From NCBI GenBank assembly GCA_025362035.1, contig JANYIN010000102.1:1-64000 (forward strand): DNA of 64,000 nucleotides. Direction: 5' to 3'. Positions within the stretch are counted from its first letter, which is position 1; each line of letters starts with the position of its first letter. The stretch is from Gemmatimonadaceae bacterium (GTDB lineage: Bacteria > Gemmatimonadota > Gemmatimonadetes > Gemmatimonadales > Gemmatimonadaceae). This document shows, piece after piece, positions 24,492-26,758 of this stretch. The translations under genes and the position numbers were made by a program. The notes under the pieces are model-generated. The model was not told where the DNA came from. It did no database searches and saw only the letters and a program-made list of their open reading frames with translations.

Positions 24492-25262
24492 GTGCACCAG
24501 CGCCCCGTCCTCGCGGCAAACTGGAAGATGAATCTGGGTCCGTCCGCGGCGACGGCATTCGTGAGGGCGTTCCTGCCGTTGCACGCGGCACGTGACGAGC
24601 GCACCGTCATCTTCTTCCCGCCGGCCATCTCCTTTGCCGCCGTGCATGCCGCGACGCGGGCGCGGCCCGACATTCGGCTCGGCGTCCAGAACGTGCATAC
24701 CGACGAGAAGGGCGCCTTCACCGGCGAGACGTCCGCCGGCATGGCCGCGGACGCCGGGGCGAGCTACGTGCTGGTGGGTCACTCCGAACGCCGGCACGTC
24801 TTCGGCGAGACCGAGGCCGAGTCGGCGCGCAAGTGCGCAAGGGTGGTGGAGCACGGGCTGATCCCGGTGCTGTGCGTCGGGGAAACGATCGAGCAACGCG
24901 AACGCGGCGAGACCGAATCAGTCGTGCTCCACCAACTGCGGACGGGCCTATCTGCGCTCACGCACGAGGCGGTTCGGGAGGCCATCATTGCGTACGAGCC
25001 TGTTTGGGCCATCGGCACGGGGCGCACGGCCACGCCCGACGACGCCGCCGCGGTTCACCGCGTGATACGCGCGGCGCTCGTGCGTCTCGTGGGGGAGAGC
25101 GGCGCCACGATTCCCATCCTGTACGGCGGAAGCGTCACGCCCGCCAACGCCGCCGCGCTGCTCGCCGCGGATCAGGTGGATGGCGTGCTGGTTGGCGGAG
25201 CAAGCCTCGATGCGGCCAATTGGGCCGCCATCTGCGCCGCGGGCATCGAACCAGGGAACTGA
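24492..25262 (+). CDS. tpiA: Triosephosphate isomerase
   Basis: AANWKMNLG; VGHSERR; AYEPVWAIGTG; YGGSVTPAN. Confidence 0.97.
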   Translation: MHQRPVLAANWKMNLGPSAATAFVRAFLPLHAARDERTVIFFPPAISFAAVHAATRARPDIRLGVQNVHTDEKGAFTGETSAGMAADAGASYVLVGHSERRHVFGETEAESARKCARVVEHGLIPVLCVGETIEQRERGETESVVLHQLRTGLSALTHEAVREAIIAYEPVWAIGTGRTATPDDAAAVHRVIRAALVRLVGESGATIPILYGGSVTPANAAALLAADQVDGVLVGGASLDAANWAAICAAGIEPGN

Positions 25263-25383
25263 CCGACTTCGTTCGCTTGCTCGATGGGCCGCGTGACGAC
25301 ACTCGTGTACGAGCCGAGGTCGTCGTTCCGTGCCGCGCGTTCGCGATGTCACGCCACTGGTTCGTCGCAATGCGCCAGTAGAT

Positions 25384-25397
25384 CGCGCGCGCGCGCG
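25384..25397. repeat. (CG)7 alternating purine-pyrimidine tract
   Basis: cgcgcgcgcgcgcg read directly. Confidence 0.85.
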
Positions 25398-25413
25398 AAC
25401 GCTTTGTTGCGTA

Positions 25414-26169
25414 GCGACGTGAGGTTGCTACCTGGCGACGAAAGGTTGGTCGACGCTGACGAACGGCGGCAGTGTGGCGACGAAAGGTCGGTCCGCGTCG
25501 ACGTCAGCTCGCTCCGCGTCGAGGCGAGGTCGCGGCGACGCGCCGGCAGCCCGCCGCGCTGCAACGTCGCGCTGCCGCGATGCGCCCCTAGTCAGCGCCG
25601 ATGCGACGCGAGGCTGCAGCTGCGCATCGCGAGGCCGCTTCGACAGGACGCAAGGCTGCTCCCGATCGACGTGAGGTTGCTCGGATGCGACGCGAGGCTG
25701 CTCCCGATCGACGTGAGGTCGCCCGGACGCGACGCAAGGCTGATCCCGCGTGAAGCCAGGTTGCTCGGACGCGACGCTCGGCCGCTCCGGAGCGACGCAA
25801 GGCCGGTGCGACGCGACATTCGGCAGCGCCGCTGCGGCGACGGGCTGCGCCGTTGCAGCGAGAGGCCGCTTCGCTGCGGCGACAGTCCGCTTCGCGGCGG
25901 CCACGGTCTGCGGCGACGCGACGACAGCCCGGCCCGCGCCGACGTGAGCCTGGTTCGCGCCGACGACAGACAGGTTCGCCGCGACGTTGGGCAGGTGTTC
26001 ACGGACGGCAACCTCGTTCGTTCCAACGGTGGATCGAGTCGATCAACCGTTACTTCGGTTCGGCGCGACGTTGGCTGGGCTCGCTCCGACGCGGACTCGG
26101 GTCGCGCCAACGTGGGCTGCGTTCGCTCGGACGATGAATCCGGCTGCTCCGACGTTGGACCCGTCAGCG
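25414..26169. repeat. Degenerate tandem repeat array, 36 x 21 bp with no indels
   Basis: Hand segmentation gives 36 contiguous 21-nt units; approximate consensus gCGACGtgaGgctGctccGgn; GACG at unit positions 3-6 in about 22 of 36 units; units 12-17 alternate two variants (42-bp super-period). Confidence 0.85.
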
Positions 26170-26341
26170 TTCGCCTTGGCGCGTGGCGCGCCTATTACGA
26201 TTGCCTTCGCTGCGCGAGCGGCGCGGACCGGTGAGGCGTGGTGGTGGTTCTGTTGCGTGCACGTCTTGACGCACCCCCGTAACTCTCGTCATATTTAGGG
26301 GTTATCCCTTGCGTCGCCTCTCACCAACTCGGGCCGTCGGC

Positions 26342-26758
26342 ATGTTCTCGTTTCTTCTCGTCCTGCTCATCATCGACAGCATCGTGCTGATCGCCGCGGT
26401 CCTTCTTCAGTCGGGGAAGGGAAACGGTCTCGCGGCAAGCTTCGGCGGCGTGAGCAGCTCGGCGGACTCGCTGCTCGGCACGCGCCAAGCGGGGAATCTG
26501 CTGACGCGCGCCAGCTGGTGGGGCGGCGGGCTGTTCCTGTTCCTCGCGTTCGTGCTTTCGCTGGCGTCCACGCGGCAGCGCGCGCCAAAGTCGGTACTCG
26601 ACCAGGCCTTTTCGCAACCGCCTGCTCCGGCCGGCGCCCCAGCCGCGAAGCAGGGGACACCGGCGGCCGGCGGCGTGAACCTGACGCCGGCGACCCCGGC
26701 TGCGACAACGCCGGCATCCACCGCACCATCGTCTCCGCCGGCACCCAAGAAGAAGTAG
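26342..26758 (+). CDS. secG: Preprotein translocase subunit SecG with Pro/Ala-rich tail
   Basis: Two TM segments around VLLQSGKGNGLAASFGG...LLGTRQAGNLLTRA; 3' of gap-pgk-tpiA. Confidence 0.88.
   Translation: MFSFLLVLLIIDSIVLIAAVLLQSGKGNGLAASFGGVSSSADSLLGTRQAGNLLTRASWWGGGLFLFLAFVLSLASTRQRAPKSVLDQAFSQPPAPAGAPAAKQGTPAAGGVNLTPATPAATTPASTAPSSPPAPKKK

Follow-up and report, generated by a model that had tools for sequence, protein, structure and literature searches.

A dispersed family of degenerate 21-bp arrays in near-constant register in the genome of a Gemmatimonadaceae bacterium

Background

The window analysed here, a 64,000-nt stretch of a bacterial contig, contains a long run of 21-bp units between tpiA and secG. 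What are these units for, and why do they keep such a regular length? According to the original prediction they could be either a heptapeptide repeat or a DNA or RNA element for which a length of two helical turns is important. We followed this question through the window, through the genome that contains it (G000, 212 contigs with 4.64 Mb in total) and through the relatives of the organism, which the nearest named TpiA matches place in the Gemmatimonadota.

Results and discussion

The array between tpiA and secG

The left neighbour, tpiA (24492-25262, plus strand), ends 151 bp before the array, and secG (26309-26758, plus strand), whose identity is backed by Pfam (66.9 bits), begins 139 bp after it. 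The gap from the tpiA stop at 25262 to the secG start at 26309 measures 1046 bp, close to the 1.1 kb first estimated. A profile chain that permitted any unit spacing from 10 to 42 bp returned exactly 36 units at 25414-26169 (756 bp, on the plus strand as set by the motif GCGACGnnAG), and every step was 21 bp, which confirms that the array consists of 36 indel-free units. The count of units with GACG at positions 3-6 was also reproduced (22 of 36).

Two checks had been proposed for the periodicity, which came through both. The autocorrelation of 25263-26305 peaked at lags 42 (0.543) and 21 (0.518), followed by 84, 63, 126 and 105. At lag 21, 500 first-order shuffles gave 0.287 +/- 0.015, with a maximum of 0.331, and every 300-bp stretch in the rest of the window stayed at or below 0.413. 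Tandem Repeats Finder reported the array in pieces, with periods of 21, 42 and 84 bp. One of the higher-order repeats, a 42-bp unit in 3.6 copies at 25647-25797 (plus strand), is the trace of recent local duplication of unit pairs. Furthermore, two copies of CGACGnnAG separated by 12 bp occur seven times in the window, always within the array, where 0.01 occurrences were expected. The left edge is soft: weak in-phase similarity persists leftward to about 25300, and the periodicity decays gradually.

Regarding the flanks, a hairpin (TCGCGCGCGCGCGCGA) with a T-rich tail lies at 25383-25398 on the plus strand and is a possible terminator for tpiA, judged by a pattern of which 0.8 sites are expected by chance. 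Promoter-like hexamers are present upstream of secG at 26266-26295 on the same strand (0.1 expected by chance).

A family of arrays in the same genome

A search of G000 with the translation of the array gave about a dozen loci, each of them a strict 21-bp array. For a second pass, 79 four-unit segments were drawn from 12 arrays. They line up over 84 columns with zero gaps, and the sequence-only profile derived from them brought the number of arrays to 15. The family therefore comprises at least 15 arrays of 25-42 units, 483 units and about 10 kb in total, a count based on the profile search and on 270 kb of unbiased sampling of G000. No further non-coding 21-bp array was found in this 270-kb sample of other contigs.

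The pooled unit consensus is GCGACGwcAGsCyssTCCGCt, in which positions 2, 3, 5, 6, 9 and 10 belong to the most constrained ones, and the arrays have in common the characteristic short core CGACGnnAG. Inside one array the mean identity between units is about 47-60%. All the arrays are intergenic and adjoin unrelated genes: besides tpiA and secG, we identified a metallo-hydrolase with a peptidase, an MFS transporter, EutB with a thioesterase, PfkB, an amidohydrolase with an ABC transporter, VIT1 and an epimerase. Peptidases, kinases and transporters are among the neighbours. No gene common to the neighbourhoods of different arrays was found.

Other repeats of this genome deserve a mention. Directly beside one of the 21-bp arrays, a 1331-aa open frame (L148:13616-17611, contig C122) encodes a large repetitive protein and has strong periodicities of 72, 90, 99 and 117 bp. 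At L149:16700-16840 (contig C5) lies a short array of a more usual satellite type, distinct from the 21-bp family, in which a 20-bp unit (ACAGTGGTTTCAAGCTGCGT) recurs some seven times almost unchanged. Near-identical 32-bp units (TCGGCCCGCATCGGCGCTCCGCGCCTCGCTCT) at L151:16220-16366 (contig C104) run off the end of their contig.

Register and whole-array copying

In 12 of the 15 arrays every step is 21 bp. In the other three (L252, L253 and L254) one or two steps measure 22 bp, L253 and L254 having one of these in common, and L254 seems to resume after a 20-bp step. Among 468 successive steps only a handful differ from 21 bp. Almost all of these measure 22 or 20 bp, and none represents a 3-bp change. 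These exceptions are near-two-turn spacings and not codon-sized changes. Since the units are only about 47-60% identical, the register has outlived the sequence.

The clearest case is a pair of arrays on different contigs, L253:6790-7411 and L254:7928-8549, which are about 70% identical over 620 bp without any indel in register, while their flanks are unrelated and identity there falls to the background of about 0.3. They are demonstrable whole-array copies. In bacterial mutation the ratio of indels to substitutions is 0.03-0.1, and with this ratio assumed, the divergence of the two copies should have brought 6-20 indels; the probability of observing none lies between 0.003 and 2e-9. Between the copies the motif is held, with columns 2-6 and 9-10 being 77-90% identical, whereas the remaining columns drift (47-63% in columns 11-14 and 16-20). 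We infer that selection probably acts on the 21-bp phase, although turnover of units by recombination might keep the register without it.

The serious rival here is a purely selfish or neutral satellite, which would have originated by slippage and spread by copying without any host function, its period being explained by the amplification mechanism and by recency. We consider this quite conceivable, though not probable. It agrees with the restriction of the arrays to one lineage, with their being missing from orthologous sites, with the lack of shared neighbouring genes and with recent unit duplication in places, as seen in the 42- and 84-bp higher-order repeats and in the runs of near-identical units in L147 and L192. 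Nevertheless, it does not sit well with units of 47-60% identity that are still in register, nor with two array copies some 30% diverged with zero indels in register, in which the motif columns are better conserved than the others. The polarity described below, the same in 14 arrays, also speaks against it.

A common polarity

Taking the strand from the motif, we compared the two halves of each array. In 14 of 14 independent arrays C at unit position 1 was more frequent in the second half (mean difference +0.37, z 8.4), and so was CG at positions 18-19 (z 8.2). The gradient thus runs from G to C at position 1, while positions 18-19 become CG. In the family as a whole, the units of the early half mostly start with GCGACG and are weakly conserved at positions 18-21. 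In the tpiA-secG array the right half (25792-26169) exceeds the left half (25414-25791) by 0.44 for C at position 1 and by 0.39 for CG at positions 18-19, both halves being read on the plus strand.

There is no obvious reason why a head-to-tail satellite should be polar. Either the arrays descend from a single polar ancestor or the direction matters, so the polarity could reflect common descent instead of a functional requirement. Unit-by-unit homology among arrays other than L253 and L254 was not clearly detectable, and conserved end units, which we looked for across the arrays, were found only in this same pair.

Coding potential

A 316-aa open frame beginning with ATG runs through the tpiA-secG array (25284-26234, plus strand). 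It could belong to a gene for a heptapeptide-repeat protein read in the frame GAC GNN AG., as 21 bp is a strict multiple of 3, five of the first 12 arrays examined, this one included, lack stops in the GAC frame, and real heptad genes with a 21-bp period do exist. Actually, we consider such a gene very improbable. The stops in the six frames of all the arrays (60, 43, 18, 106, 18 and 25) match those expected from a 21-periodic first-order Markov null (60.7, 48.3, 15.2, 102.8, 14.2 and 25.8); in the GAC frame 18 were observed against 15.2 +/- 4.0, and 9 of the 15 arrays have stops in it. The 22-bp steps in L252-L254 break the reading frame. Furthermore, the codon-usage score of the open frame is -0.17, against 0.27-0.55 for the neighbouring genes, and its Pfam search gave no match. 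With a negative codon score, no Pfam match and an openness compatible with chance, we regard the 316-aa frame as spurious.

Two other coding tests were discarded. An apparent stop avoidance in three frames, seen against column-shuffled units, was gone under the first-order Markov null that keeps the context of neighbouring bases. The differences by codon phase of the columns (299/301/292 in near-identical unit pairs and 58/73/68 between L253 and L254) are powerless as evidence against coding, because the genuine heptad genes L313, L317 and L194 also lack a wobble excess.

These genes are worth describing in themselves. L313 (4013-4552 and 4638-5078) and L317, from IMG/VR phage contigs, encode GDVSxIxG heptad proteins with strict 21-bp periodicity in the DNA, and in L313 two tandem open frames have a common start (MKAALVKREANI). 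They were the heptad-coding cases among the IMG/VR pattern matches translated in the GAC frame; the other translated matches were short or unrelated frames and were rejected as relatives of the array. L194:1072-1794 (genome G037, minus strand) encodes a protein of 240 aa that looks like a coiled coil, carries RTxLAxx heptads and has a hydrophobic segment at the C-terminus; its 21-bp period arises from coding, so it was not accepted as a relative either.

The arrays might also be decayed, scattered remnants of an ancestral heptad-coding gene, given that their GAC-frame translations (DVSxVRx) superficially look like the phage-contig GDVSxIxG heptads. This is hardly to be expected, because pseudogenes gain indels fast and the arrays have almost none. 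Moreover, the likeness rests on the short common core CGACGTCAG, which the search pattern already contained. No intact coding homologue turned up in the 59 relatives searched.

RNA potential

Repeat-rich RNA, acting as a 3'UTR element or as a sponge for small RNAs, would suit the situation of the arrays near gene ends, and some bacterial satellites have been reported as transcribed (PMC8625621). However, we found no consensus base pairs among the arrays, no excess folding on either strand (mean z +0.09 and +0.07) and no Rfam family above the gathering score. In addition, the arrays have no uniform orientation relative to the genes around them: 19 of 28 neighbours are opposed (one-sided p 0.044). 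An RNA role therefore appears improbable.

Relatives and other lineages

Between tpiA and secG, relatives have no array and, as a rule, a gap of about 60-180 bp. A congener (G001) carries an insertion of about 0.9 kb there (L106:2253-3170), which resembles an ordinary gene and was discarded as an array, having no 21-bp periodicity. Among the 59 relatives searched, no convincing member of the G000 unit family was found, and most of the weak profile matches in them were noise without a 21-bp period. None of the plasmid records resembled the array.

Absence from close relatives was named with the original prediction as a reason to abandon the element, and formally the tpiA-secG site shows just that. 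The element survives this result, since its family is dispersed and restricted to this lineage.

A genome of another genus of the same family (G028) contains several 21-bp arrays of unrelated sequence: the correlation between its units and the G000 unit matrix was not above that of permuted columns (p 0.47). Two of them, L192 and L265, have their end units in common and middles expanded from different units. G028 thus keeps to 21 bp although its unit is unrelated, as if the spacing and not the sequence were constrained. In samples of some twelve further relatives 21-bp arrays were absent, and as most of the relatives sampled lack the arrays, any function is dispensable across the family.

G028 is markedly satellite-rich compared with the other relatives sampled. 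It also has dispersed 14-bp arrays (CGACGCGCCnTTnT) and one 17-bp array, these loci being L267:379-783, L261:9560-9834, L262:19360-19617 and L263:3-221.

A putative protein-binding array

The fixed two-turn spacing, the unrelated sequences in different lineages, the conserved core and the lack of coding and RNA signals point together to a use at the DNA level. Of the alternatives offered by the original prediction, the DNA element fits, while neither the heptapeptide repeat nor RNA structure is supported. The explanation that we tentatively favour, giving it nearly an even chance, is a dispersed non-coding satellite whose two-turn spacing is selected and which serves as a putative protein-binding array. 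Each 21-bp unit would carry a degenerate recognition element with the core CGACGnnAG, and, being two turns apart, neighbouring elements would lie on one side of the helix. A DNA-binding protein could then occupy them side by side, its copies forming an oriented filament over about 0.5-0.9 kb that would take its direction from the change of GCGACG units into CCGACG...TCCGC units. Arrays would enlarge and renew themselves as single units or groups of a few units duplicate, and would now and then be copied whole into a new intergenic site. Their purpose might be nucleoid architecture or the insulation of neighbouring transcription units, which is a guess. Two features of the units speak against this explanation: dyad symmetry is not significant (p 0.50), and there is no 10.5-bp sub-period in A+T (6% of the power).

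A more specific proposal is that the arrays are polar two-turn platforms for a candidate filament protein, dispersed in the chromosome, with spacing and direction selected and not the sequence, and that the unrelated units of G000 and G028 serve the same purpose. We regard this as rather unlikely.

The literature has yet to explain why some bacteria carry non-coding tandem repeats of fixed length and arbitrary sequence (PMC8161180). G000 makes this question testable, with 15 long polar arrays almost free of indels at high divergence, and the whole-array copies L253 and L254 separate the positions that are held from those that are free. If a protein does assemble on the arrays, they would represent a new type of bacterial chromosomal platform.

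Comparison with known systems

In plasmid iterons and centromere-like arrays, direct repeats some 20 bp long are phased so that proteins bind cooperatively along one face of the helix. They resemble the G000 arrays in having candidate sites spaced by about two turns, a comparison that concerns spacing only. However, their units are few, nearly identical and located beside rep or par genes, whereas those of G000 are many, degenerate and beside unrelated genes; no rep or par gene was present among the array neighbours identified.

A closer comparison is offered by bacterial repeats of 20-23 nt, which Subirana and Messeguer reportedly surveyed in J. Bacteriol. in 2020. Such satellites are described as species-specific and mostly non-coding (PMC8161180, PMC6749651). 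Therefore, the original prediction that no described family has this pattern is right for the unit sequence, but this kind of satellite was already published. In PMC8161180 the authors suggest for repeats of 20-21 and 52 nt either a protein polymerising on DNA or a small RNA.

Both groups have a constant unit length close to two helical turns, numerous arrays in a genome, short motifs common to the arrays of a species, unrelated sequence in other species, mostly non-coding arrays and a patchy taxonomic distribution. Regarding constant length within 20-23 nt (at least 60% of identical length), all but a handful of the 468 steps are 21 bp. The family is species-specific and has several arrays (15 in G000, none convincing in 59 relatives), its characteristic short sequence is CGACGnnAG, and G028 provides the unrelated sequence of the same length. 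Its non-coding nature is reflected in stop counts equal to the null in six frames and in the codon score of -0.17. PMC8161180 does not mention Gemmatimonadota, and several arrays may be too degenerate for the similarity thresholds of SATFIND.

Transposed satellite families have been described in Leptospira interrogans and Methanocella conradii (PMC6749651); they are likewise dispersed in one genome, with long repeats there and 21-bp units here. Compared with the satellites in the accessible text of PMC8161180 and PMC6749651, the arrays of G000 are long (25-42 units) and degenerate (47-60% identity), have a common gradient and include a whole-array copy. Polarity, degeneracy with an intact register and whole-array copying are thus what this family adds to the satellites described there.
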